Positions 15,543-52,781 of a DNA stretch of 64,000 nucleotides are shown in pieces. Each line of letters begins with the position of its first letter. Within the stretch, counting starts at the first letter, position 1. This DNA comes from Zhongshania sp. (GTDB lineage Bacteria > Pseudomonadota > Gammaproteobacteria > Pseudomonadales > Spongiibacteraceae): NCBI RefSeq assembly GCF_029212375.1, contig NZ_JARGNU010000002.1:62001-126000 (forward strand), given 5' to 3'. Position numbers and translations under genes: made by a program. The notes under the pieces are model-generated. The model had not been told where the DNA came from and ran no database searches. It saw nothing but the letters and a program-made list of their open reading frames with translations.

Positions 15543-16787
15543 CTAAAATCCTTCCATCGCGAAAGGGTTCAGCAGCTGCCGGCGCCATAGCATCGAGCGA
15601 TCGGTCTTTGACAGGGCGGCCTCATCGGCTATCGTATGCCACTCAGTTTCGATTACCTGAATCTGCTGCTCGGCAATCGCTCTCGCCTCAGGGGCAGATA
15701 ATAGAAAGTAATTCGCGGCCCCTATGCAGTGCACCAATTGGCTGAGTCGTTGCCCTTCATAGATGCTCATGCCTTGGGTGGCTTCACCACCAGTGCGAAG
15801 CTGCGGACAGATATCATACGCCGGCGTTAAGCGTACGTATCCCTGCTCGCAGAATACAGCGTGATTACGCGCGTGATCGTCTGTGTTGCCGCACAATATA
15901 TTGAATATCAGCCTTGAAAACAGCTCACGCAAATCCACTTTGGGCTGATCGCTGTTGGCCCTTAACCACTGAGCAAAATTGCTGTAACTAGCATAGGGTG
16001 CCTCCATTTCATCCAAGTCGAGTACCGTTAGCGCAGACACCACGCCGCGCCGGCACCAGCCGCCGTTGTGCCAGTGACGGTCGAATCTTTCAACCAGCAA
16101 TACGTCTCTGCCGATGCTTTGCGTGAGTGACACCTCGGCCACATTGAGCCCGCAAGCGGCGGCTAGGCGCATACTGAGGAACTCATACTTCACCAAGGGG
16201 TATGTGTCAGTGCTAGAAGAGAACTTGGCAATATATTTTTTGTCGCGGCCGTTCAGCAGTGACTTGGGCCGCGCACCGCCAATGGCTGTGCCGTGCTGCA
16301 GTGCCTCGGCCAAGCCAGCGGGCAGTGGAATGTTGTTCTGCAGCATCTGAACGGCGCTGTGCAATTCATCTAGAGTGGCGCTGTTTTGCCGCGCAACGTA
16401 CTCTGTTGGCGAGTCTTGGAAATCAAGGCGCCCGATGCGGTCGGAACCCGATTCGCGAAGAAATACTAGCTCAGATTCGTCACCTGTATCCATCTCCCGT
16501 GAGTCATCGCCGTATAGACGATTCAAAATAACATGGCGCCCCCAAGAATCTGGGGCCCCGTCGCGCAGACAGCCGGCGAGGCGTTTTGGTGGCTTAGGTT
16601 CTTGGGGGCCTGATACCAATGGCAACTCGTCGATAAAGATGGGAACTGCTTCTTTTCGGTTAAGGTAACTTTTACCATAGGCAAAAACCAAGCTGTCACC
16701 CGATTGCTGAATTACGCCGGCCACCACTGGCTTTACCTCTTTGGGCAGCCAGATCCACACATATAATACGCTCGATTTAGAAATCAT
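15543..16787 (-). CDS. hipA: HipA-family serine/threonine kinase toxin
   Basis: The 414-residue protein has the HipA layout: an N-terminal Couple_hipA-type domain (about 1-110), then a kinase core with GGARPKSLL (ATP-binding loop), KYIAKFSS (Lys for ATP), LLVERFDRH, the catalytic GNTDDHARNHAVF, and YDICPQ in place of DFD. All motifs expected for an active kinase are present. In E. coli HipA phosphorylates glutamyl-tRNA synthetase and causes growth arrest; the target here is unknown. It overlaps the upstream hipB-like gene by 11 bases, the normal antitoxin-first order. Its stop is directly followed by a 5'-truncated EF-hand gene, suggesting the module was inserted here. Confidence 0.88.
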   Translation of the reverse strand: MISKSSVLYVWIWLPKEVKPVVAGVIQQSGDSLVFAYGKSYLNRKEAVPIFIDELPLVSGPQEPKPPKRLAGCLRDGAPDSWGRHVILNRLYGDDSREMDTGDESELVFLRESGSDRIGRLDFQDSPTEYVARQNSATLDELHSAVQMLQNNIPLPAGLAEALQHGTAIGGARPKSLLNGRDKKYIAKFSSSTDTYPLVKYEFLSMRLAAACGLNVAEVSLTQSIGRDVLLVERFDRHWHNGGWCRRGVVSALTVLDLDEMEAPYASYSNFAQWLRANSDQPKVDLRELFSRLIFNILCGNTDDHARNHAVFCEQGYVRLTPAYDICPQLRTGGEATQGMSIYEGQRLSQLVHCIGAANYFLLSAPEARAIAEQQIQVIETEWHTIADEAALSKTDRSMLWRRQLLNPFAMEGF

Positions 16788-17118
16788 CGTTCATCACCGG
16801 TGTAGTGTCATGAATGCGCTTTGGCAGCAGCGGCGCCTTTTCGCGCGCGCTCGTCAGGCGCTCTCGGCGCTTGTCGCCAAACAACGAGACACCGACTAGG
16901 CTAGCCATTTCGAAGACTAGGCCGACTTCGGCCTTCGGGTGACCTTTTTCAATACGTCGAACGGTACCGCGGGAGACGCCAGCGTGCTCCGCTAACTTGC
17001 CCTCGGACCACTTTCGGGCCTTGCGTGCGGCTGCAATCTCTAAGCCCATTAGCTCAAGTGCTTCTTTGGTCATTGGCGAATAGGTGCGAATATGTTGTGT
17101 ATTTGCCTTTTGGTTCAC
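16777..17118 (-). CDS. hipB: HipB-like XRE-family antitoxin
   Basis: DNA-binding antitoxin partner of the adjacent HipA kinase. It has an XRE helix-turn-helix (about residues 25-80, including LGLEIAAARKARKWSEGKLAEHAGVSRGTVRRIEKG, seen here in short form as LAEHAGVSRGTVRRIE). The ORF track starts at 17223, but I favour the GTG at 17118 (113 residues) because GGAGG lies five bases upstream and the extra N-terminal residues look random. The C-terminal tail is basic and ends MNDDF. The gene overlaps hipA by 11 bases. Autoregulation is likely, given paired direct repeats upstream. Confidence 0.82.
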   Translation of the reverse strand: MNQKANTQHIRTYSPMTKEALELMGLEIAAARKARKWSEGKLAEHAGVSRGTVRRIEKGHPKAEVGLVFEMASLVGVSLFGDKRRERLTSAREKAPLLPKRIHDTTPVMNDDF

Positions 17119-17197
17119 GGCCACCTCCGAGAATGACGGTATTATCTCCAGCATAGCATCTAAACCTGTTTTGAATAAGCTGACGTGTACCGCATGA

Positions 17198-17236
17198 AGT
17201 ACATTAAGTCGATAATATACCATGCTTAGTACATTA
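17198..17236. promoter_or_regulatory. Paired direct repeats, candidate hipBA operator
   Basis: AGTACATTA occurs at 17198-17206 and again at 17228-17236, so the starts are 30 bases apart, about three helical turns. The repeats lie 80-118 bases upstream of the favoured hipB GTG. No clear -35/-10 pair is visible, but TATATT on the minus strand falls between the copies. Confidence 0.45.
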
Positions 17237-40408: not shown

Positions 40409-42133
40409 ATGCACTTTGATGGTGGTTTAAAACTGGCAATTGGCCAGCGCAGCAGCGCTGGGCAAAAGCCGGTTAACGAAGATAGCTTGGGTATTTGCAT
40501 ACCCAAGGACGAGCAAATTACCACCAAGGGCGCGGTGGCGGTCATTGCCGATGGCGTGTCTGCGGCAGAGGCTGGAAAGGAAGCGGCTGAAACCTGCGTA
40601 ACCGGTTTTCTAAGTGATTATTTTTCAACTCCAGATTCCTGGTCGGTAAAGCGGTCGGCCCAGCAGGTTTTAAATGCCTTGAATCGCTGGCTGTACGGCC
40701 AGGGGCAGCATTACCTGCAAGCTGAAAAAGGCTATGTTTCCACCCTCAGCATTGCAATCTTTAAATCGCAAACAGCGCATTTATTTCATGTTGGCGACAG
40801 CCGAATTTACCGTTTGCGGGACGGTTGCCTTGAGCAGCTAACCCGCGATCACGCCATGCCTATCAGTCGTGGCAAGTCGTATTTAACCCGCGCTATGGGC
40901 TTGGATATTAATTTGGATGTCGACTATCGCGCCGCAGACGTGGCGGTAGGCGATATATTTTTACTGAGTACCGATGGTATTCACGACGTATTGAGCAGTG
41001 CGCGCTTGCAGGAAATTATCGGCGCGACAGTCGAGGAGGCTGATCTCGACGCCGCGTGTCAGCAGATGATTGATGAGGCGCTGGCGGCGGGTAGTGACGA
41101 CAATCTCAGTTGTCAGTTACTGCGAGTCGATGCGCTGCCATTGGAAGATGCCGGTGATGTTTACCGCAAATTAACTGCGCTGCCGTTTCCGCCGCCGCTG
41201 GCTGTGGGCATGGTGTTAGACGGATTGGTTATTGAAGAAGAGATTCACGCCAGTCCGCGCAGTCAGTTATATAAAGTTTTTGATGCCACGGCAAACCAAC
41301 ATTACGTAATGAAAACGCCGTCGGCAAACTTTAATGACGATCCGGCCTATATCGAACGTTTTATTCTTGAGAGTTGGGTGGGGCGTCGGATTCAAAGTGA
41401 GAATGTTGTAGCGGTGATCGACCCACCGGTGGCGCCGACGTGTCTTTACTATTTGTCGGCGTTTGCACCGGGCCGAACTTTGGGGCAGTGGATGCGTGAG
41501 AATCCCCAGCCCTCTAGTCAGCAGATGTTAGATATTATTTTGCCGGCGGCTAAGGGTTTGCAGGCTATGCACCGCCGCGACACCATTCATCAAGATGTGA
41601 AACCAGACAATATTTTGGTGGGTGATGATGGGCAAATTAAAATCATAGATTTTGGTTCTTGCTATGTGGCAGGTCTCGCCGAGATTGCGGTGCCAATAAG
41701 TCGTGATCGGGTATTGGGTACCGCGCAGTATTCTGCCCCAGAACATGTTTTAGGGCGCCGCCCAGGTGTTAAGGCAGACCAGTTTTCGCTGGCGGTGATT
41801 GTTTTTGAAATATTGACTGGCCATCAACCATTTCAAGGGCGGCTAGAGAGCTGTACCACCACGGCGGCTTTTACTCGTTTAGCGTATATTCCGGCCCGTC
41901 ATTACAATCCGCATGTTCCTTTATGGCTAGATGGCGCCTTGGGGCGAGCGCTAAGTATTAGTCCAGAATTACGTTATAACGATATAGCCGAATTTGTTCA
42001 CGACCTTCAGCACCCTAATCCGGTTTATAACAAAGATAATTTTCAGCCGCTGCTTACCCGCAATCCTTTACGAGTGTGGCAGGGGATTTCATTTATCTTG
42101 TTATTAGCCTTGTTGTGGAGTCTGGGGCGTTAA
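40409..42133 (+). CDS. Fused PP2C phosphatase and Ser/Thr protein kinase
   Basis: A 574-residue protein with three parts. Residues about 1-245 form a PP2C phosphatase with all metal-site motifs (VNEDS, VIADGVS, HVGDSRIYRL, LLSTDGIHD, GSDDNLS). Residues about 260-545 form a Hanks-type kinase: VMKTP (ATP Lys), IHQDVKPDNIL (catalytic loop, His-Gln-Asp rather than His-Arg-Asp), IIDFGS, YSAPEH. The Gly-rich loop is poor (ASPRSQLYKVF). A C-terminal membrane anchor follows (ISFILLLALLWSL). The gene sits directly after narK, an association seen in other gammaproteobacteria, so it probably senses or tunes nitrate assimilation. Target is unknown. Confidence 0.87.
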   Translation: MHFDGGLKLAIGQRSSAGQKPVNEDSLGICIPKDEQITTKGAVAVIADGVSAAEAGKEAAETCVTGFLSDYFSTPDSWSVKRSAQQVLNALNRWLYGQGQHYLQAEKGYVSTLSIAIFKSQTAHLFHVGDSRIYRLRDGCLEQLTRDHAMPISRGKSYLTRAMGLDINLDVDYRAADVAVGDIFLLSTDGIHDVLSSARLQEIIGATVEEADLDAACQQMIDEALAAGSDDNLSCQLLRVDALPLEDAGDVYRKLTALPFPPPLAVGMVLDGLVIEEEIHASPRSQLYKVFDATANQHYVMKTPSANFNDDPAYIERFILESWVGRRIQSENVVAVIDPPVAPTCLYYLSAFAPGRTLGQWMRENPQPSSQQMLDIILPAAKGLQAMHRRDTIHQDVKPDNILVGDDGQIKIIDFGSCYVAGLAEIAVPISRDRVLGTAQYSAPEHVLGRRPGVKADQFSLAVIVFEILTGHQPFQGRLESCTTTAAFTRLAYIPARHYNPHVPLWLDGALGRALSISPELRYNDIAEFVHDLQHPNPVYNKDNFQPLLTRNPLRVWQGISFILLLALLWSLGR

Positions 42134-42481: not shown

Positions 42482-44362
42482 ATGCAGTTAAAACACAACG
42501 AATCGGTGGCGTTTGTGAAAATTTTAACGCGAAATTTATCGGGAATTTGCTGGTTTGTGGCGGTATTGCTACTGCCCGTGACCGCGCATGCCGCGGATCT
42601 CGCAGTGGTGAAAGCCGAGGCTTTAAACTTTTATAGCCAGTCGCGATTGGCCGCACGTAATAACGCCGATGAAGGCGCTCACAAACTTCATTTTTATATT
42701 GCGCATCGCGCAGAAAACTTAGCGCTACAGTCGGTTAGGCTTAGTATCGACGGTCGTGAGATTGCTAAATACAACTACAGTGAGCAAGAATCAAAAATTT
42801 TATTTGATGGTGGTGTGCACCCCTTGCTTGCCCTTAACTTATCGGCGGGGCGCCACCAACTCGCTGCCAAATTTGTGGTGTTGAATCGTGAGGCTGGGCC
42901 GAATGCCGACCGGCTTTCGCCGAGTATTACCCAAGAATTTACGCTGACGGCCAATAAGCAACTGGAATTGGAATTAATCAGCGATGGCTTAGTAAAGTGG
43001 TTGGAAAAACCCAGTATTACAGTTCATGACCGAGGCGTTGAAAACGTCACAGAAAATAGCGATAGCAACCCTCTACTGCGCGCTGTGTATTTTAATGCAC
43101 AGCGGCACTACGCCTTCGAAGCGCTTGCCGACGCAATGTATTTTGTTAAACAAGGCGGTAGCGTTGCCCAGTTCTCGCCGCGCTTGCAGCAGGCATTGCG
43201 GCAAAGTGTGTTTGAGCTGGGTTTGCCAGCAGTGCCCAGTGAGTTAGCGGGTATGAGTGGCCTAACTGCAGAGCATACCAATGACGATATATACCGCAAA
43301 TATAATAGCGGCGTCGAACTCCTTAATCGTGGTCAGCATAGCGAAGGACTTGCCATTCTCACCGCCTTAAGTAATGGCGAGTCGCAGCGTAATGATGAAA
43401 TTATTCTTCGCGATAAAATTAATTTGGCGCTCGGATTTCACTTTTTGCAGCAGGGCGATAGCGAGCAATCCGTGAGCTATTTTAGCAAGGTCCGGCGTTT
43501 GGGCCCTTATGCGAATAAGGCCCTAGTGGGGTTGGGCTGGGCGTTGTTAAGTCCTCGCCAGACAGCGGTCAATTCCCTGCCAGAAAAAGACACCATGGCG
43601 CCGGGTAGTAACGCTAAAGGCATGGCGTATTTGTGGTCAGGCTCAGAAGACGATATCGCCTGGGCGCGTCGTCATACTCCGTTTCGCCGAGCATGGGCGA
43701 TTGCCTCGGGCGCAAAAGAAGAAGACCTACAGGCGGCGATGGTGCCGTGGATGGAGTTAATTAATCGCGACCCCCTCGACCCCGCTGTGCAAGAAGGCTT
43801 ATTAATTCTGCCATACGCGATGTCGCATTGGGCTGGGCAGGGGCCGCGGGCCGAAACTTATTATGTGTCGGCGGTCAGCAGATTGCAGGAATCATTAATG
43901 CTTTTAGACTCGGCGGCGGCAGATATCCACAGCGGTGGCTTGCGCGAGTCAGTGAGTGCAGCCGACAAAGCGGATCTTAGCGGTTGGGATATTTGGCTAT
44001 GTGACCTCTCTGCAGACCGGCAGGGTGCGTATTTAGATTTATTGTTAGACAGCGCGCGCTTTCATATTGCGCTGCGGGAGTTTCGTCAGTTAGGTCGTAT
44101 TCGCAGTGTACTAACAGGCGATGAACGGGGCGATTCGGTTGCTGCCTTGGCCGGTCGGCGCGCCGCACTTATTCAGAATATTGACGAATTAAGCGCGCAG
44201 TGGGGGCTTAATTTAGATCAAACCGCCCTAGCTGAAATTAATAAATATCGCCTGCGCACCGAGCGCTATTTGGCAGAGGCGAATTTTGCCATGGCGCGCA
44301 ACCATGAAAATACGCGCCGCCAAATGACTGAGGTGGTGTGGGACGGGGAGGCGAACAGATGA
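42482..44362 (+). CDS. Exported TPR-containing protein, first gene of the ExbBD/AgmX operon
   Basis: A 626-residue periplasmic protein. A signal peptide ends in TAHA; the mature part has a beta-rich segment (about 35-185, with VRLSIDGREIAKYNY) and then TPR-like helices (YRKYNSGVELLNRGQHSEGLAIL, LALGFHFLQQGDSEQSVSYFSKV). The listed ATG has a weak Shine-Dalgarno. A GTG at 42515 with GGTGG five bases upstream would give a more ordinary signal peptide (MKILTRNLSG) and may be the true start. It overlaps the next gene by ATGA. No named family recognised. Confidence 0.72.
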   Translation: MQLKHNESVAFVKILTRNLSGICWFVAVLLLPVTAHAADLAVVKAEALNFYSQSRLAARNNADEGAHKLHFYIAHRAENLALQSVRLSIDGREIAKYNYSEQESKILFDGGVHPLLALNLSAGRHQLAAKFVVLNREAGPNADRLSPSITQEFTLTANKQLELELISDGLVKWLEKPSITVHDRGVENVTENSDSNPLLRAVYFNAQRHYAFEALADAMYFVKQGGSVAQFSPRLQQALRQSVFELGLPAVPSELAGMSGLTAEHTNDDIYRKYNSGVELLNRGQHSEGLAILTALSNGESQRNDEIILRDKINLALGFHFLQQGDSEQSVSYFSKVRRLGPYANKALVGLGWALLSPRQTAVNSLPEKDTMAPGSNAKGMAYLWSGSEDDIAWARRHTPFRRAWAIASGAKEEDLQAAMVPWMELINRDPLDPAVQEGLLILPYAMSHWAGQGPRAETYYVSAVSRLQESLMLLDSAAADIHSGGLRESVSAADKADLSGWDIWLCDLSADRQGAYLDLLLDSARFHIALREFRQLGRIRSVLTGDERGDSVAALAGRRAALIQNIDELSAQWGLNLDQTALAEINKYRLRTERYLAEANFAMARNHENTRRQMTEVVWDGEANR

Positions 44363-47250
44363 AGTGTGTTGCCGCTAAAAAACTACATGCTTTGCAATTG
44401 GCTTGTGCCTTACCGGCATTGCTTGGTTTGAGTGTGCTGGTTGCCGGCTGCCAGCCCGCACTAAAGCCACGCGGAGAGACCCAGACGATTGGCAGTTTGC
44501 TGGAGCGCAATGGCCAGAATCCCGATCGCTTATTTATGAAGAAGCTGCCTCCAAAGAAAATTGCCGACGCCGACGCTGAGGGGCGGCGAGTTGAAATGGA
44601 GGCTTTAAACCACTATCAGCAAGTTTTAAGTTTAGATTCCGCGCCGGGTGTTCGCGCCGAGGCTATGCGCCGATCTGCAGACCTCCGCATTGAAGCGGCA
44701 GGGCGAGATGGCGACGTTAATATGCAGGAGGTGGCTGCGGCAACCGCAATGTATAAACGGCTTATTGCCGAGTTTCCAGATTATCCCAATAAAGATCACG
44801 TAATTTACCAGTTGGCGCGGGCCTATGAATTATCCGGTCGCAGTGAACTGGCAATCAACACCTTGCGGGATTTGGCGCACGATTATCCACAGTCGCAGCG
44901 TGCCAATGACGCCTTATTTCGCTCGGCAGAAATGTTGTATTTGCGCAAGCGCTATCAAGAAGCTGCCGACGAGTACGGACGTTTAATTAGCCAAAACCCA
45001 GCTATGCCTTATTGGCAGATGGCGCAGTATAAATACGCCTGGAGTCAGTATCAGCTGAGCAAACCTGAACTTGCGGTGGGTAGTTTTACCGCGATTTTAA
45101 GTCAGCTCAAGACACTCCGCGAAGTGACGAGTGTAGATCAGCTCCTAACTTATGTGCCGGAAGCCAGCGCAGAGTTGGTGCGCGATACGGTGCGGGGCTT
45201 GAGTTTAGCACTGGCGGCCAAGGCCGACGGCCACAATATTGCTGCTTATTTTGCCAAACTGCCTGGCAATCATTTTTATCCCTTGGTTTATAACAGCCTC
45301 GGCGAACTACTATTGAGCAAAAAGCGGTATACCGACGCCGCCAGTGTCTTTGATGCTTTTGCCAGCGCTTACCCGCAGCACGAATTGGCAATGAGTCACA
45401 GCGAAAAAGCGATTGCTGCTTATCAGCAAGGTGGTTTCACTGGCTTAAAAATCAGCGCACAAGAGGCCTATGTTGAACGTTACGCAGCGGATTTACTCGC
45501 CGCACAGGCCAGTGGAGCGGCGGATGCGGAGTTGCCCAAACTTAGTAGCTTGCTGCGTGACTATACAATGGAGATATTAGCGTTTCGCCATGCCGAGGCT
45601 CAGCAAACGCCTGTGAGTGAAGCTGATTTACGGCTGCAGCGTTTTGCTGCAGTGGCAGCAAGCTATCGCAAAGCGCTGGCGATGTTTCCGAACGACAGCG
45701 ATTTTGCCACGACCAGTATGCGCTACGCTGACGCCTTATTTGATGGCGGCGAAGTTAAAGCCGCGGCCGACCAATACATGGCGGTGGCCTATGATCTGCC
45801 AAGCTATAGCAAGCCAGCCGATGCGGCGTTGGCGTCGGTAAAATCCTACCGCGCGTGGCTGAAAAATGCGCCTGAGGCTGAGCGTGACGCGGCCCAGCAG
45901 GCGGTGATCGCCGCCAGTACTCGAATGGCTGCGGCCTTCCCTCAGCACCCAGAGCGCAGCCGAGTACTGTTGGCCAGTGCCGAAGACCTATACGTATTGC
46001 AACGCCACCAAGAAGCGATAGCGATTGCCGAACCCTTGCTTGTAAATGCGCAGTGGACCGAGCCGAGTTTGCAAAGCAAGGCTTTGAGTATTACTGCCGA
46101 CGCTTACTTTGCACAAAATAGTTTTGACAAAGCGGAGATGTATTACGCCAAGTTATTGCCGATGATTGCTGGGGAGCCAGAGCTGCAGCGGATAGCTAAA
46201 GATCGTTTGGCGGTATCTGTTTATCGCCGAGCGGAGGGGCTTAGAGCCGACGGTGACAGCGCGCTGGCGGCAAATTTATTTTTGCGTGCCGCCGACTTAA
46301 GCCCTGATCCAGTGCTGCGGGCTAATGCAAGTTTTGACGCCGCTGGGCAGTTATATGCAGTTAATAATTGGAAGCAAACGGCCGATGTTTTACAGCGCTT
46401 TCGCAGCGAATTTCCAAATCACGAAATGGCCGGCGATGCGGATAAACTACTTGCCGAAACCTATCAAAAATCAGCGCAACCCGCTTTGGCAGCTGGGGTG
46501 TATGCCCGCATAGCATTAGTCGCTAGCGAAACCCTTGAAACGCGTCGCCAAGCGAGCCTCATGGCGGCAAAGCTTTACGACCAAGCGGGGCTGCGCGAAC
46601 AGGCGCGAGTGGCGATAGAAAATCATATTGCGCAGTTTCCCGCGCCCTTGCTAGAGGCCCAGCAATTTCGGCAGCGCCTGGCTGAAATGGCACCGGCAAA
46701 CAGCGAGCTTCATCACCGCTGGTTAAAAGAAATTATCACTGCCGACAAACTTGCTGCACAACCTATCGCGGCCTCGCAACTACTGGCGGCAGATGCCAGT
46801 TTGCAATTGGCGATGATTGACGTGCGCCGCGCCAATAGCGCCAAGCTGCGCTTGCCTATCGCAAAAAGTTTGCCGCTGCGGCAGCGGGCTATGCAAACCG
46901 CCATCGACAGTTTGGCGCAGGCTTCAGCTTACGGATTTTCTGATATCACCACTAAAGCGAGCTATGAGCTGGGCAATTTATACCGAGACTTTGCTAAAGC
47001 ATTAATGGCATCTGAAAAGCCACGAGAATTGCGCGGCGAAGTGCTGGAAGCGTACGCCCTGCTATTAGAGGAGCAGGCGTATCCCTTTGAGGAAAAGGCA
47101 ATTAGTGCCTTTGAAGCCAATGTTGCGCGTGTTCGCGACGGGGTTTGGACTGCTGGCATGCGGCAAAGCCTTTTTGCCTTAATTGAATTGGCGCCCGCCA
47201 AATACGGTAAACAGCCTCAACTGGAGGACAGCTATGATTCACTTTACTAA
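44359..47250 (+). CDS. Large TPR lipoprotein
   Basis: A 963-residue lipoprotein (LVAGC, Cys31) made almost wholly of TPR or Sel1-like helical pairs, for example YKRLIAEFPDYPNKDHVIYQLARAYELSGRSELAI and YQEAADEYGRLISQNP. Spacing and TPR style recall YbgF/BamD-type and the GltE-like TPR lipoproteins of myxobacterial gliding complexes. Start at 44359 (ATGA overlap with the previous stop) is preferred over 44338. Likely outer-membrane-anchored scaffold of the complex encoded by this operon; this is inferred. Confidence 0.75.
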   Translation: MKCVAAKKLHALQLACALPALLGLSVLVAGCQPALKPRGETQTIGSLLERNGQNPDRLFMKKLPPKKIADADAEGRRVEMEALNHYQQVLSLDSAPGVRAEAMRRSADLRIEAAGRDGDVNMQEVAAATAMYKRLIAEFPDYPNKDHVIYQLARAYELSGRSELAINTLRDLAHDYPQSQRANDALFRSAEMLYLRKRYQEAADEYGRLISQNPAMPYWQMAQYKYAWSQYQLSKPELAVGSFTAILSQLKTLREVTSVDQLLTYVPEASAELVRDTVRGLSLALAAKADGHNIAAYFAKLPGNHFYPLVYNSLGELLLSKKRYTDAASVFDAFASAYPQHELAMSHSEKAIAAYQQGGFTGLKISAQEAYVERYAADLLAAQASGAADAELPKLSSLLRDYTMEILAFRHAEAQQTPVSEADLRLQRFAAVAASYRKALAMFPNDSDFATTSMRYADALFDGGEVKAAADQYMAVAYDLPSYSKPADAALASVKSYRAWLKNAPEAERDAAQQAVIAASTRMAAAFPQHPERSRVLLASAEDLYVLQRHQEAIAIAEPLLVNAQWTEPSLQSKALSITADAYFAQNSFDKAEMYYAKLLPMIAGEPELQRIAKDRLAVSVYRRAEGLRADGDSALAANLFLRAADLSPDPVLRANASFDAAGQLYAVNNWKQTADVLQRFRSEFPNHEMAGDADKLLAETYQKSAQPALAAGVYARIALVASETLETRRQASLMAAKLYDQAGLREQARVAIENHIAQFPAPLLEAQQFRQRLAEMAPANSELHHRWLKEIITADKLAAQPIAASQLLAADASLQLAMIDVRRANSAKLRLPIAKSLPLRQRAMQTAIDSLAQASAYGFSDITTKASYELGNLYRDFAKALMASEKPRELRGEVLEAYALLLEEQAYPFEEKAISAFEANVARVRDGVWTAGMRQSLFALIELAPAKYGKQPQLEDSYDSLY

Positions 47251-47830
47251 GGTGCTCGTCGCGCTTGTATTACTCAGTGTTGCCGCGTGCAGTTCTGGTC
47301 CGCAGACCATGAAATCTGCGCGGCAGACAAGCAAGGTGTCGTCGGCAGAATTTGATACTGCGCTGGCGCTAATGAAAAGTGGAGACAGCGACGGCGCGAC
47401 TCACGCTTTTTTAAAGCTCAGCGAAAGTCATCCGCGCTCGACTGGGCCGTGGACAAATTTAGGTATTCTTGCAGCGCGGCAACAACAGTATGAATTAGCG
47501 GCCAAGTATTTTTTAGCCGCGCTACAGCGGGAACCTAAGAACGTCGCAGCGCTTAACTGGATGGGTTATATCACCAGCAAAAATGGCAGTTTCGACGCCG
47601 CCTTAGGCTGGTATAGCAAGGCGCTGGCGGTTCGCGATGACTACGCTCCGGCACATTTGAATATGGGTATTCTCTATGAGACGGCGTTTAAACAAAGCGC
47701 CCAGGCGCTAACGCACTACCGCCGCTATCAGGCGCTTACCGGCGGTGACAATATTTTAGTTAGCGCTTGGATCCACAATTTGGAATCCAGCGCGGACTAC
47801 GTGGCGGTGAATGTGTCGCAGGTGAACTAA
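47234..47830 (+). CDS. Small TPR lipoprotein
   Basis: A 198-residue lipoprotein (VAAC, Cys19) with about three TPRs (GPWTNLGILAARQQQYELAAKYFLAALQ, AALNWMGYITSKNGSFDAALGWYSKAL, APAHLNMGILYE). Start at 47234 has a full GGAGG six bases upstream and lies inside the end of the previous gene (17-base overlap). It resembles PilF/NlpI-like TPR lipoproteins in fold only. Overlap with the next gene's ATG (TAATG) shows coupling. Confidence 0.8.
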   Translation: MIHFTKVLVALVLLSVAACSSGPQTMKSARQTSKVSSAEFDTALALMKSGDSDGATHAFLKLSESHPRSTGPWTNLGILAARQQQYELAAKYFLAALQREPKNVAALNWMGYITSKNGSFDAALGWYSKALAVRDDYAPAHLNMGILYETAFKQSAQALTHYRRYQALTGGDNILVSAWIHNLESSADYVAVNVSQVN

Positions 47831-48144
47831 TGAAATCATTATTGCTTATTGTTTTGGGGTTTTCTTTGGGGCTGGCTCTGCCCGCTAGCGCAGAGTTGGC
47901 GGATGGCGTCGAGACCAGTGCCGAGCCAGCAATGGGCGTAACCATCCACGGCAGTGACGAGGCGGCGGTCGGTTTGTACTTAATGCCTTGGGGTGAAGAG
48001 CCAATGAGTGATTTAGATCGCCCGCCGCAATTAATAGACGAAGGCCCGCAAACTGTTAATGCTGAGGAGTTTCAGCGTTATGCCGAATGGTATCAGGCGC
48101 ACCGCTCGTATCGTTATTGGCGTCTGCAGCGCAATAACTGGTAG
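47830..48144 (+). CDS. Small exported protein of the ExbBD/AgmX operon
   Basis: A 104-residue protein with a signal peptide (1-21, ending ASA). The mature part is short, acidic and ends in an aromatic/basic tail (YRYWRLQRNNW). No recognised domain. It begins within the previous stop codon (TAATG) and is followed 64 bases later by the ExbB-like gene, which has its own GAGGTG. Conservation within similar operons should show whether it is a true component. Confidence 0.65.
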   Translation: MKSLLLIVLGFSLGLALPASAELADGVETSAEPAMGVTIHGSDEAAVGLYLMPWGEEPMSDLDRPPQLIDEGPQTVNAEEFQRYAEWYQAHRSYRYWRLQRNNW

Positions 48145-48208
48145 TTAAAATTTTGGCGGCAATACCAACGTATAACGAAATTTAATTTGATATTTTTTGA
48201 GGTGAATT

Positions 48209-48853
48209 ATGGAAGCCATTTCGACGTTCATTACGTTTTTTAATAACGGCGGCCACTTTATGTATCCAATAGCGCTGGTGCTCGCTTTTGCCATCGCTAT
48301 TAGCATTGAGCGCTTTGTTTTTTTAACTAAATCCCTTAGCGATAACCGCCGCTTCTGGGCCAAGATTTGGCCAATGCTGAGCGCAGGCGAAATCAGCGAA
48401 GCCGAAGCGTTAATTGGTAAATCAAAGCTCGCCGTTGCGCATATTTTGAATTGTGGGCTTGAGCAAGCGCGAATCGACAGTCGCCGCAGCGACGTAGAAA
48501 TTGCGACTGAAGATGGCCTAATGGCACTGCTGCCAGCCATTGAGCGTCGGACCCATTATTTAGCGACGTTTTCTAACGCCGCGACCTTGCTGGGCTTGCT
48601 CGGAACGGTGTTGGGTTTGATTGGCGCCTTTGGCGCGCTGGGGACTGCCGACCCTGTTGAAAAAGCAAATTTGCTGTCGGCGGGTATTTCCGAGGCCATG
48701 AGCTGTACCGCATTTGGCTTGATGGTGGCGATTCCCTCACTCTTTGCACATGCCTATTTGCAAAGTCAGGCAGGGGAGTTAGTTGATACGCTGGAGTCGG
48801 CCTGCTCGCGGTTTGTAACAGTAATAAATCGCAGTAAAGCGCTGCAGCACTGA
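48209..48853 (+). CDS. ExbB/TolQ/AglR-type proton channel subunit
   Basis: A 214-residue MotA/TolQ/ExbB-family protein with three membrane segments (FMYPIALVLAFAIAISIERFVFL; NAATLLGLLGTVLGLIGAF; AFGLMVAIPSLFAHAYL). The Gly-rich TLLGLLGTVLGLIGAF segment is the family core. With the two ExbD-like proteins downstream it should form a proton-motive-force-driven stator. The neighbourhood lacks Tol-Pal genes and a TonB-dependent receptor, so it is neither tolQ nor a normal exbB. Confidence 0.9.
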   Translation: MEAISTFITFFNNGGHFMYPIALVLAFAIAISIERFVFLTKSLSDNRRFWAKIWPMLSAGEISEAEALIGKSKLAVAHILNCGLEQARIDSRRSDVEIATEDGLMALLPAIERRTHYLATFSNAATLLGLLGTVLGLIGAFGALGTADPVEKANLLSAGISEAMSCTAFGLMVAIPSLFAHAYLQSQAGELVDTLESACSRFVTVINRSKALQH

Positions 48854-48862
48854 GGTCTAAAG

Positions 48863-49444
48863 ATGAGCGCCATGTTTGATATAGAGCCAGATGTCGATGA
48901 GGGGCCGCGCAGCTCAAGACGAATACGTCGTCTTAAACGGAAGTTGCGCCATCGCCCCGATGGCGAGCTGAATATTGTCTCGATGATCGATGTGTTTGCA
49001 GTACTGGTTTTTTTCTTATTGGTTGGTTCGTCGATTTCGGCCAGTAAATTACATGCGCTAAAATTAAATTTGCCCTCGATTAACGCTGAGCAGGTGGTGA
49101 ATGACAAGCCAGCATTGCATTTAGCAATCAGCCTATTTGAAGATCATTTAGAAATTAGCAATAGCGAGGGTTTAGACAAGGCTATGCCGAAAGTATCCGG
49201 CAAATACGACACTAAAGCGCTAGCTGAGCTGCTGGTGGCCCTGAAAGAAGACCATCCAGACGAATCTAGTATTAGTTTGTTTATTGCAGAAGATATTGCC
49301 TACGAAGATATTGTCGCGGTTATGGACAGCAGCCGAGAGTACCCAGCGGGTAGTGCGGGTGTTAATGGCAGCGCTGCGCTGTTCCCGTTAATTTCCATGG
49401 GTGATGCACCGCAAGACAGCGCTGAAGTGGAGTCAAAACCATGA
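48863..49444 (+). CDS. ExbD/TolR-type stator subunit 1
   Basis: A 193-residue protein with a short basic cytoplasmic N-terminus, one membrane segment (SMIDVFAVLVFFLLVGSSI) with the essential Asp near its start, and a periplasmic domain. The Asp carries protons in ExbD/TolR. Overlaps the next gene by 4 bases. Ten bases after the ExbB-like stop, with an AAAG-rich site upstream. Confidence 0.88.
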   Translation: MSAMFDIEPDVDEGPRSSRRIRRLKRKLRHRPDGELNIVSMIDVFAVLVFFLLVGSSISASKLHALKLNLPSINAEQVVNDKPALHLAISLFEDHLEISNSEGLDKAMPKVSGKYDTKALAELLVALKEDHPDESSISLFIAEDIAYEDIVAVMDSSREYPAGSAGVNGSAALFPLISMGDAPQDSAEVESKP

Positions 49445-49971
49445 GCAAACGTCAGGAGCGAAAACTTAATCGCGAGGTAAAGCGAGCTGGCCGCGATGTT
49501 GCTATTAATGTGGTTTCGCTTATTGATATATTTGCTATTTTGGTTTTTTACTTGCTGGTGAATGCCGTAGTAGTAGAAGTGATTCCAGAATATCAGAATT
49601 TAAAATTGCCCACTTCGCTAGCCAGTGAAAAGGCGCAACGCACCGTAACGGTTGCGGTAAGTGCCAGCGATATACTGCTGGAAGAACAGCGCATAATGAG
49701 TGTTGAAGACGCCCTGCAATCAGAGCAGCGGGTATTGGCATTATTGGCGGCAGCGCTGGCGCCCCTCATTGCGGTGGCTGGCGCTGACGAGTTCGGCGGT
49801 AAAAGCGAGCCCGATTCGAAAAAATTGGGCAGCGGCAAAGATGTGAATATAGTTGCAGATCGCGATACGCCCTACCGTTTGCTCAAGAAAATTCTCGCAA
49901 CCTGTGTTGATGCGAACTTTGATCATGTTTCCCTCGCCGTGCGGGAAATTACTCAGGGAGGTGGAGCATGA
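49441..49971 (+). CDS. ExbD/TolR-type stator subunit 2
   Basis: A 176-residue second ExbD-like protein with membrane segment SLIDIFAILVFYLLVNAVV carrying the essential Asp. Two different ExbD/TolR proteins per ExbB is the pattern of AglRQS in Myxococcus, not of standard Exb or Tol systems. Overlaps genes on both sides by 4 bases. Confidence 0.88.
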   Translation: MSKRQERKLNREVKRAGRDVAINVVSLIDIFAILVFYLLVNAVVVEVIPEYQNLKLPTSLASEKAQRTVTVAVSASDILLEEQRIMSVEDALQSEQRVLALLAAALAPLIAVAGADEFGGKSEPDSKKLGSGKDVNIVADRDTPYRLLKKILATCVDANFDHVSLAVREITQGGGA

Positions 49972-50417
49972 ATAGTGCGCTACTAGCCCAAGCCACATTG
50001 GGAAGCGATTACTGGGGAATTACCTTAGCCGCCGACCGGCATTTTAAGCGCATCTTGCTCAATGTAGTGAGCTTGCTGCTATTACTGCTTGTTGCTGCCC
50101 CCTTCTGGGTACTTGATGTTCCCGAGGCGCCGCCAATAGAGCCTGCGACCAGTTACGCTCTTGAACTCTTGCCCGTACCAAAAGCAAAGCCTCTACCAAA
50201 AGAGGTTGCAAAGCCAAAGCCGGTGCTTAAAGCCGCGGCGGTGTCAAAGCCTGTCGCCGTGAGTAAGCCGAAAACGGTGGTTAAAAAAGTAATGCCCCAA
50301 CCTAGACCGGCAAAACCGACTCCTTCCGTAAGTGCCCAAGAGCGGGCTCAGGCCGCAGCCGCGGCTGCCGCGCAGCGCCAAGCTGCAGCAAAAGCCGCGG
50401 CCGCTAAGCTGGGGTAA
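49968..50417 (+). CDS. TonB/GltG-like N-terminal half: anchor plus Pro/Lys/Ala-rich linker
   Basis: A 149-residue protein with a membrane anchor (LLNVVSLLLLLLVAAPFWVL, about 31-50), a Pro/Lys-rich linker (KPKPVLKAAAV, KPKTVVKKVMPQPRPAKP) and an Ala-rich helix, then a stop. This is the N-terminal half of a TonB/TolA/GltG-type energy transducer without its C-terminal domain. The missing domain is encoded by the next ORF in the -1 frame, which overlaps at GGGGTAATG. GGAGG precedes the ATG. Confidence 0.78.
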   Translation: MNSALLAQATLGSDYWGITLAADRHFKRILLNVVSLLLLLLVAAPFWVLDVPEAPPIEPATSYALELLPVPKAKPLPKEVAKPKPVLKAAAVSKPVAVSKPKTVVKKVMPQPRPAKPTPSVSAQERAQAAAAAAAQRQAAAKAAAAKLG

Positions 50418-51004
50418 TGGCCTTTAGTGAACAATTAGCGCAATTGCGTGATACCAGTAGCGATGTGGTGATCAGTGAAAAGAATCTTAGAGAACGTGGC
50501 GCGGTAAAAAGTGAGCTTGCGGCGCCCAGTACCGACTCGCTTTCGGCAAGTAAGTTAAGTGCTGGTCATGGCGACTACGGTACACACAGTGTTAGTGGCG
50601 AACAGAGCAGCACGGTAGTTGGTAGCCATAGTACAGCCAAGCTAGCCGCGATTGCGGCGCGCTCGGCGGCCGTCGGCGGGAGTGGCGGCGCAGCGGCGGG
50701 CGGTGCTAAACCATCGCGCAGTTTGGAAGAAATTCAGCTTGCCTTTGATCGCAGTAAAACAGCGTTCTACGCCATTTTTAGTCGGGCTGCGCGCAAAGAC
50801 ACCACGATTCGAGCTGGCACCGTGGTGGTAAGTTTAACGATTGAACCAGACGGTTCGGTAAGTGGCAGTAAAATTGTTTCGTCGAGCTTTTTTAATCCGG
50901 ATTTAAAAGAAAAACTATTGCAGCGCATTGCTATGCTTAAGTTTGAGGCGAAGGCTGTTCCCCGTTACACCTATCCTAACTACCCCATTAGTTATATGCC
51001 TTAG
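50417..51004 (+). CDS. AgmX/PglI (TonB-like) C-terminal domain protein
   Basis: A 195-residue protein. Residues about 1-90 are low-complexity Ser/Ala/Gly-rich; the C-terminal 90 residues form an AgmX/PglI- or TonB-like domain (FDRSKTAFYAIFSRAARKD, GTVVVSLTIEPDGSVSGSKIVSSSF, RIAMLKFEAKAVPRYTYPNYPI). It has no signal or anchor of its own, so on its own it would stay cytoplasmic. In -1 frame continuity with the previous ORF it would complete a membrane-anchored TonB-like protein (KLGVMAFSEQLAQLRD), which is more sensible biologically. Confidence 0.75.
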   Translation: MAFSEQLAQLRDTSSDVVISEKNLRERGAVKSELAAPSTDSLSASKLSAGHGDYGTHSVSGEQSSTVVGSHSTAKLAAIAARSAAVGGSGGAAAGGAKPSRSLEEIQLAFDRSKTAFYAIFSRAARKDTTIRAGTVVVSLTIEPDGSVSGSKIVSSSFFNPDLKEKLLQRIAMLKFEAKAVPRYTYPNYPISYMP

Positions 51005-51287: not shown

Positions 51288-51422
51288 TTTAGATTTGTTG
51301 CAGAAATATTTCATGTCACTATTTGGTGTGACGGTGTAATTCCAATAATTTCCAGATTTTAATTTATTTTTAACTTTATGAATAATAAGCTTTTTTTTAT
51401 TTGGTCAATTGATTTATCATTT

Positions 51423-51439
51423 TTGGCTTATGTTTTGCT
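51423..51439 (+). promoter_or_regulatory. Sigma-54-like element upstream of the porin
   Basis: TTGGCTT-ATGTT-TTGCT. GG and GC spacing is correct and the -12 is perfect, but the -24 has two departures (TGGCTT for TGGCAC). Start would be near 51450. Confidence 0.33.
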
Positions 51440-51527
51440 TTTGCTGGTTATCGCAATTCCTTTGCAAGGAACACTGTTTGCGGTGTTGTTGCTTTACCTT
51501 ATCGATACCTACCAAAAGAGAGACCTC

Positions 51528-52781
51528 ATGTTGAAAATGAAAGCACTTCCCTTAGCTATTTCTATCGGCCTACTAGGTGCTGCGGCGCAAACAACATTTG
51601 CTGCAGAGAATATTACCGAAGCCCTCAGTAAGGGCGAAGCCCACTTAAATTTGCGTATGCGTTATGAGTCTGTTGCTGAGGACGTGGCTGCGGGTGGCAA
51701 CAAAACGGGTGACGCCCTCACCTTGAAAACGCGGTTGAACTACAAAACGGATAGCCTTAAGGGCTTTAGTGGTTTTGTGGAATTAGATGACGTGAGTAAT
51801 TTTGCGGGTGACTCAAATGACAGTGTTAATGGCAATGTTGCTGATTCACTGATTGCCGATCCGGCAGGCACCGAAGTAAACCAAGCTTTTATTGCCTATA
51901 GCAATTGGAGTAGCGAATTTAAATATGGTCGTCAGCGCTTAACCTACGATAATCATCGCTTTGTTGGTCACGTTGGCTGGCGTCAAAATGAGCAGACTTA
52001 CGATGCGTTTACCGCCGCCAATAGCAGTGTCGAAAATCTTAAGCTGAACTACGCGCACATTTCTAATGTAAACCGTATTTTTGGTGAAGCCAGCGCGGTG
52101 GGCGACACCGAGATGGATTCCCACTTATTGAACGCGAGTTACACTCTGCCAGCAGGTACTGTGACGGGTTACGCCTATTTGCTCGAGACCGATGATAATT
52201 TCGCCGGTTTTAAACGTATGGATACCGATACCTACGGTATTCGCTGGCAGGGCGTGGCGGGTGACTTGGCGTATAATCTTGAATATGCCACGCAGGACAG
52301 TGCCGGTAAAAATCCCGCCGATTACAGCTCAGACTACATGCTTGCTGAGGCGACTTATAAGCTCGCACCAGTAACGCTTGGTCTTGGCTACGAAGCGCTG
52401 GGCGCCGACAAAGACGGTTTCTTTATTACGCCGCTGGCCACCTTGTTTAAATTTCAAGGCTGGACCGATATGTTCTTAAACAAAGGTTTGGGTAATATCA
52501 GCGATGGCATTAACGACACTTACTTCACAGTTGGTGGGGCGGCATTGGGCGTGAATTGGTTGCTGGCCTATCACAACTTTGAATCAGAGCAAGATAATAG
52601 CGCTGGTGATAGCGACCTCGGTTCGGAGCTCGGCGGTATGGTCACCAAAAGCTGGGGACCTTATTCTGCAGAGTTGCGTTACGCCAGTTACAGTGCGGGC
52701 GATAGCACAGGCTTTAATGGTGGCGGCTTGAGCTTGATGGACACTGAAAAAGTGTGGCTGACCTTAAGCGCTAACTTCTAA
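51528..52781 (+). CDS. Outer membrane porin, alginate-export/OprD-like fold
   Basis: A 417-residue beta-barrel protein with a signal peptide (about 1-24, ending TFAAE). The mature protein opens AHLNLRMRYESVAED and continues in alternating amphipathic strands such as LTLKTRLNYKTDS and SAELRYASYSAGDSTG, ending in the aromatic C-terminus LSANF typical of outer membrane proteins. The ORF-track start at 51378 adds 50 hydrophobic residues; I prefer 51528 with AGAGAG upstream. Substrate is unknown. Position next to nitrogen genes and a sigma-54-like element hints at a nitrogen source. Confidence 0.82.
   Translation: MLKMKALPLAISIGLLGAAAQTTFAAENITEALSKGEAHLNLRMRYESVAEDVAAGGNKTGDALTLKTRLNYKTDSLKGFSGFVELDDVSNFAGDSNDSVNGNVADSLIADPAGTEVNQAFIAYSNWSSEFKYGRQRLTYDNHRFVGHVGWRQNEQTYDAFTAANSSVENLKLNYAHISNVNRIFGEASAVGDTEMDSHLLNASYTLPAGTVTGYAYLLETDDNFAGFKRMDTDTYGIRWQGVAGDLAYNLEYATQDSAGKNPADYSSDYMLAEATYKLAPVTLGLGYEALGADKDGFFITPLATLFKFQGWTDMFLNKGLGNISDGINDTYFTVGGAALGVNWLLAYHNFESEQDNSAGDSDLGSELGGMVTKSWGPYSAELRYASYSAGDSTGFNGGGLSLMDTEKVWLTLSANF

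Follow-up and report, generated by a model that had tools for sequence, protein, structure and literature searches.

What kind of machine is encoded at positions 42482-51004 of the window, the whole stretch of 64,000 nucleotides of Zhongshania sp. DNA analysed here, and is it a new one? A preliminary description, made from the letters alone, saw nine genes for an undescribed, proton-driven, Agl-Glt/Nfs-like machine spanning the envelope. The likeness is supported by the gene set, the gene order and homology, and the operon very probably encodes a stand-alone core complex of the Agl/Glt/Nfs type, proton-driven and reaching across the envelope. The word undescribed does not hold, however, since the operon is the stand-alone core complex of Luciano 2011 (PMC3169522) and Wartel 2013 (PMC3858216), and its kind is already known. 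Other gammaproteobacteria thus have a locus of this kind that is known by description, but not by function.

Luciano 2011 reports that gltC, D, E and G cluster with aglR, Q and S in Gammaproteobacteria, as a region of unknown function, together with one further clustered gene that was believed to have no homologues in Myxococcales or Bdellovibrionales. An interaction between AglR and GltG is published in the same paper (PMC3169522), and Wartel 2013 presents the stand-alone core as a possible basal transport machine (PMC3858216). The role of this core would show the origin of the Myxococcus gliding and spore-coat motors.

Layout of the operon

All ORFs of the preliminary description were found in place on the plus strand, and their coordinates, tight spacing and domains were reproduced. 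The count of nine was not, as ORFs 8 and 9 (H and I) are one interrupted gene and the operon consists of eight genes. The features are as follows.

A, 42482..44362, plus strand, 626 aa: exported protein; N-terminal domain of ~180 aa modelled as a beta-sandwich (A1), the remainder a putative GltC-like TPR protein (A2)
B, 44359..47250, plus strand, 963 aa: GltD-type TPR lipoprotein, lipobox LVAGC-Q, predicted outer membrane
C, 47234..47830, plus strand, 198 aa: GltE-type TPR lipoprotein, lipobox SVAAC-S
D, 47830..48144, plus strand, 104 aa: small exported protein with the motif G-x-x-E-x-P/A-x-x-LY-x-x-PW, in the GltF/NfsF position
E, 48209..48853, plus strand, 214 aa: ExbB/TolQ-family channel, AglR-type
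F, 48863..49444, plus strand, 193 aa: first ExbD/TolR-family protein (AglQ/S-type), TM Asp present (SMIDVFAV)
G, 49441..49971, plus strand, 176 aa: second ExbD/TolR-family protein (AglQ/S-type), TM Asp present (SLIDIFAI)
H, 49968..50417, plus strand, 149 aa: N-terminal half of the transducer, TM helix at about 25-55, Pro/Lys/Ala linker
Frameshift site, 50409..50420, plus strand: CTGGGGTAATGG, one base short of the relatives' frame, TAATG stop/start overlap
I, 50417..51004, plus strand, 195 aa: C-terminal half of the transducer, AgmX/PglI / TonB_C-like domain, no signal or TM segment
Porin-like barrel, 51378..52781, plus strand: Alginate_exp family, downstream of the operon

The successive gaps from A to I are -4, -17, -1, +64, +9, -4, -4 and -1 bases. 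A is preceded by a 348-base gap, upstream of which lies a PP2C-kinase gene, and 373 bases separate I from the downstream porin-like gene. As already reported, there is no TolB, Pal, TonB-dependent receptor or MotB at the locus.

The domain search confirmed the TPR repeats of B and C. E matches MotA_ExbB (89 bits), and the ExbD domain was found in F (57.6 bits) and G (57.0 bits), while I matches TonB_C with 22 bits and the AgmX/PglI tail (NF033768) with 38.5 bits, both just below the curated cut-offs. Relatives of A match TPR-type NCBIfam models; A has no Pfam match of its own, and searches of NCBIfam and Pfam gave only generic TPR or nothing. Ordinary signal peptides are present in A and D, and H has one TM segment. 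By the Lol rule a lipobox without Asp at +2 predicts the outer membrane, and because those of B and C lack this Asp both lipoproteins are predicted to reside there. The structure model of A1, built from 3 sequences (pLDDT 64), is a beta-sandwich without an informative match in the PDB. Most relatives encode A1 and A2 by two distinct genes; here, as in five other Zhongshania, a single gene covers both.

The interrupted transducer gene

In 58 related genomes searched, the strong matches to I all lie in one open frame of 311-459 aa; one weak second match (genome G026) sits elsewhere, in a frame of 166 aa. The alignment of the relatives continues straight across the H/I junction, where the window reads CTG GGG TAA TGG as compared to GGC GTN ATG GCC in the relatives, so that one base is missing. 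The transducer is a single frame in 20 of the 20 relative loci examined, and a continuous gene was thus seen in all relatives but not in this genome. Together, H and I constitute a single TonB/GltG-like transducer gene, broken by a single-base frameshift. Homopolymer slippage as its cause is unsupported, since the relatives all lack a G5 run at this position.

The split matters for the functioning of this copy rather than for its descent. The operon may be decaying in this genome, with the frameshift having disabled the machine, a reading that we regard as a real possibility although we would not expect it. The transducer is in two pieces, I has no export signal and hence cannot reach the periplasm without H, and the operon is often absent within the genus. 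On the other hand, every other gene is intact, and H and I are still constrained in comparison with their nearest relatives (dN/dS about 0.12-0.15, similar to F), which implies either a recent break or a fault in the draft assembly of 29 contigs. The machine of this genome has thus lost its function only lately, or else the break is an artefact of sequencing. It is also possible that the break is read through by frameshifting, stop-start coupling or recoding, which would speak against decay as well.

Conservation and distribution

The order A-B-C-D-ExbB-ExbD-ExbD-transducer is kept at 20 loci, which come from 19 genomes of the genus and the taxonomic order, D having been located by hand in eight loci where BLAST missed it. 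Such conservation rules out chance, and it bears out the expectation that the TPR genes stay beside the ExbB/ExbD genes. Two loci are exceptions to the order: L065 has its A1 and A2 genes after the transducer, and the contig of L067 stops short of A. Among named organisms, the nearest relatives belong to Zhongshania, including Z. marina. The named Zhongshania and Myxococcus genomes were supplied by a contig scan with a chimeric query, the C-terminus of the window's GltD joined to M. xanthus MglA, the latter checked against the PDB.

Within the genus the operon is present in 12 of 18 genomes. A ClpB tree scatters the six that lack it over at least four positions, and the operon was lost, or is absent, at least four times within Zhongshania. 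In a class-wide sample of 232 gammaproteobacterial genomes, drawn evenly over many families, the GltD gene was found in 54. This distribution is unlike that of a housekeeping envelope system, which makes it highly improbable that the operon serves Tol-Pal-like constriction or maintenance of the outer membrane with TPR lipoproteins replacing TolB and Pal. The best PDB match of E is indeed TolQ (60 bits), and F and G match TolR weakly, but this genome has another pair of TolQR type (L002) that is closer.

Homology to the gliding and spore-coat machinery

The entire set A1-A2-B-C-D-E-F-G-transducer is found in identical order in Bdellovibrio (L180). When searched against a Myxococcus genome, the B profile retrieved GltD-family proteins (E=5.6e-84, four paralogues), the best of which sits on the mglA contig. 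The GltE model is matched by 16 of the 16 members of the C family. Of the transducer family, 14 of 17 members match the GltG model (best 3.9e-19) and 17 of 17 the AgmX/PglI tail; the family also matches the GltJ model. H has no Pfam match, and the FHA domain of Myxococcus GltG is absent from the transducer, for which a profile search of the PDB returned coiled-coil artefacts and weak TonB matches. The motor profiles (E/F/G) score the Bdellovibrio counterparts with 188/81/86 bits, as compared to at most 125/42/25 bits for the TolQ/ExbB and TolR/ExbD paralogues of this genome. In the GltD tree the gammaproteobacterial copies stand apart from the delta copies.

All types of the Group B set (gltC, D, E, G, aglR, Q and S) are therefore represented, clustered in one region, and GltC is the weakest. 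The A2 profile matches proteins in the GltC position of Bdellovibrio and Myxococcaceae (1e-5 to 4e-14), and the certain Myxococcus GltC (L201, NF033756, 1092 bits) is matched best by the B profile. A thus appears to be GltC-like, but TPR cross-talk is possible and this is the weakest of the seven assignments.

Among 1333 pooled ORFs of Myxococcaceae and Bdellovibrio, the top four matches to A1 are the ORFs directly upstream of the GltC-like gene. In the same pool, small ORFs in the GltF position take 10 of the 11 top ranks of the D profile, with weak E-values (best 0.009). The hhalign comparison of D with GltF gave 65% with the enlarged family; with mature sequences only it gave 0.7% and the profile was not significant, so that the support holds with full-length or enlarged families only. 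It is probable, going by weak sequence scores and position, that D is GltF. Whichever of A1 and D is the additional gene mentioned in PMC3169522, both have candidate counterparts in Bdellovibrio and Myxococcaceae.

The mglA contigs of three Myxococcaceae (L165, L169 and L173) carry the GltD paralogue that most resembles the gammaproteobacterial type. It is flanked by A1 and GltC-like genes, joined in two of these genomes by GltE- and GltF-like ones. This is probably the G4 cluster (MXAN_1922), whose function is not known. The record BNCN01000011.1 (L075), labelled Comamonas sp. KCTC 72670, holds an MglA 99% identical to that of Myxococcus, and is for this reason probably mislabelled or contaminated.

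Comparison with known systems

With the stand-alone core of PMC3169522 and PMC3858216 the operon shares the seven homologues in one region and the lack of Group A genes alongside; here the conserved set also includes D and the A1 domain, the latter joined to A2 in one gene, and the transducer is frameshifted. With the Nfs spore-coat machine and AglRQS of M. xanthus it has in common the order of GltC-, GltD-, GltE-, small exported (GltF)- and GltG-type genes and a motor of one ExbB and two ExbDs. Unlike in Nfs, NfsA/B-type barrels are missing from this genome, the motor genes lie inside the operon, and there is no FHA domain. The motor, GltC, D, E, G and probably F are shared with the Agl-Glt gliding machine of M. 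xanthus, but no GltA, B, H, I, K or CglB was found at the locus, and there is no reason to expect gliding by the Zhongshania operon.

The ExbB/ExbD motor class, a TonB-like transducer and a periplasmic TPR protein also occur in TonB2/TtpC and Tol-Pal, from which the operon differs by two unlike ExbDs to one ExbB, by its GltD/GltE lipoproteins, and by having no receptor, TolB or Pal. It is quite improbable, nevertheless, that this is a Ton-type import energiser, in which the ExbB/ExbD/TonB-like proteins power an outer-membrane receptor and the TPR proteins are accessory, like TtpC of TonB2. The ExbB and ExbD families and the TonB_C-like tail (22 bits) would fit such a role, but the AgmX/PglI tail outscores TonB_C, and there is no TonB-dependent receptor at the locus. 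Furthermore, GltD/GltE-type TPR lipoproteins always accompany the set, and a separate ExbB-ExbD-ExbD-TonB-receptor cluster is present on contig C25 of this genome.

The ExbD pair

In every gammaproteobacterial locus checked outside Zhongshania (other families, L064-L072 and L204-L212), the first ExbD carries Asn, once Ser, at the position of the TM Asp, whereas the second ExbD always keeps the Asp. In Zhongshania and Bdellovibrio both ExbDs have the TM Asp. The loss of Asp from just one of the two ExbDs supports a heterodimer, and it makes the question of a hetero- or homodimeric axle in Agl-type motors (PMC9389320) testable.

Proposed mechanism

From the observed gene content, order, conservation, homology and predicted export and TM features, we infer by analogy how the core complex might assemble, rotate, use protons and move cargo. 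E (ExbB/AglR), F and G would form a proton-driven motor in the inner membrane, where E would probably be a pentameric channel around a dimer of the ExbD-like proteins, as in the 5:2 class of motors, which includes Agl (PMC9389320). The GltG-like transducer (H and I) would convey the movement of the motor through the periplasm via its TonB-like tail, and would connect it to the outer-membrane lipoproteins B and C and the periplasmic A and D. A, B, C and D would make up the section of the machine in the periplasm and outer membrane, by which cargo at the surface is moved or loaded, as it is in Myxococcus gliding and spore-coat assembly. Of possible cargoes, a surface glycopolymer and an outer-membrane barrel are our best guesses.

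Partner genes

Barrels of TIGR04565 above the cut-off were found in 34 of the 232 gammaproteobacterial genomes, and every one of these belongs to the 54 genomes that carry GltD (hypergeometric P=4.5e-27, uncorrected for relatedness). On the contig of GltD, at 3-23 kb, lie 26 of the 35 barrel genes, and 33 of 35 are within 2.5 kb of DUF3570. The TIGR04565 pair of Myxococcus, 256 and 298 aa, is located directly before GltC (NF033756, 1092 bits), and because of this position the two are GltA and GltB. Luciano 2011 (PMC3169522) assigns the GltA/GltB barrels to the delta-only Group A; these barrels hence have counterparts beside the gammaproteobacterial core.

Twelve such loci were read. In these, one or two barrels, TlpA, DUF3570 and often ApbE are followed by A1-A2-GltD and the subsequent genes, all in the same direction. 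In 7 of the 12, the part covered extends to the motor and transducer genes. In the loci L202-L213 we also observed a protein of about 850-1020 aa upstream of the core; an HZS_alpha domain was found in the three tested, and those tested show similarity to a TolB-like propeller. In this genome the best TIGR04565 scores are 38.4 and 29.8 bits (cut-off 60), and the barrel/TlpA/DUF3570/ApbE partners are absent from the window's lineage.

Zhongshania has another module instead. DUF3034 is found in 12 of the 12 Zhongshania genomes with the operon and in none of the six without it. It adjoins the operon in eight of the 12 and is unlinked in four, including this genome, where it lies as follows.

DUF3034, contig C25:167694-168614, this genome: heads the DUF3034-globin-FMN_bind-PepSY_TM-cupredoxin genes

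The module (C25:148001-183000) is near the ExbB-ExbD-ExbD-TonB-receptor cluster. A class-wide link between DUF3034 and GltD was rejected, the co-occurrence being only 2 of 13.

These neighbours raise the alternative of extracytosolic redox delivery, the motor positioning or driving an outer-membrane flavin, thioredoxin or heme system. TlpA and DUF3570, often with ApbE, precede the operon in 12 of 12 loci of other families, and DUF3570 is a substrate of ApbE in flavinylation (PMC8238504). The published [S/T]GA[S/T] motif is present in only 3 of the 12 DUF3570 proteins of the barrel loci, which makes flavinylation of this subfamily doubtful. The match between operon and globin/FMN_bind/PepSY_TM module in Zhongshania extends over the at least four independent absences, but the two are adjacent in several of these genomes, and their joint loss could be a single deletion. 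As the module is near iron-uptake genes in this genome and DUF3034 does not accompany GltD class-wide, we find redox delivery unlikely.

A wider form of the stand-alone core is a tentative proposal that we think rather less likely to be right than wrong. The core would be a full Nfs-like surface-transport machine for redox-active cargo, with GltA/GltB-type barrels, a GltF-like protein and an extracytosolic flavin/thioredoxin module (TlpA, DUF3570, ApbE and often the large HZS_alpha-domain protein) as its usual partners. The ExbDs would be an obligate heterodimer with mostly one proton site, and Zhongshania, which keeps the two-Asp form, would have swapped the barrel/redox set for another flavin module. 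In the literature searched we found no account of the correspondence of D and GltF, of barrels and TlpA/DUF3570/ApbE beside the gammaproteobacterial core, of the loss of the proton Asp in the first ExbD, or of the co-occurrence of operon and DUF3034 module in Zhongshania. The survey of neighbours offers testable partners: GltA/B barrels, DUF3570/TlpA/ApbE and, in Zhongshania, the DUF3034 module.

Genes around the operon

The Alginate_exp barrel gene downstream adjoins the operon in 4 of 11 Zhongshania relative loci, and is at most a candidate member of the machine. Upstream, the window carries a fused PP2C phosphatase and Ser/Thr kinase gene (40409-42133) beside a nitrate transporter and nirB, and the PP2C/kinase gene is kept upstream of the operon in eight Zhongshania loci. 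Further away, at 15543-17223 of the window, two overlapping ORFs on the minus strand resemble a HipA/HipB-type pair, with a kinase-like and a small putative DNA-binding protein.
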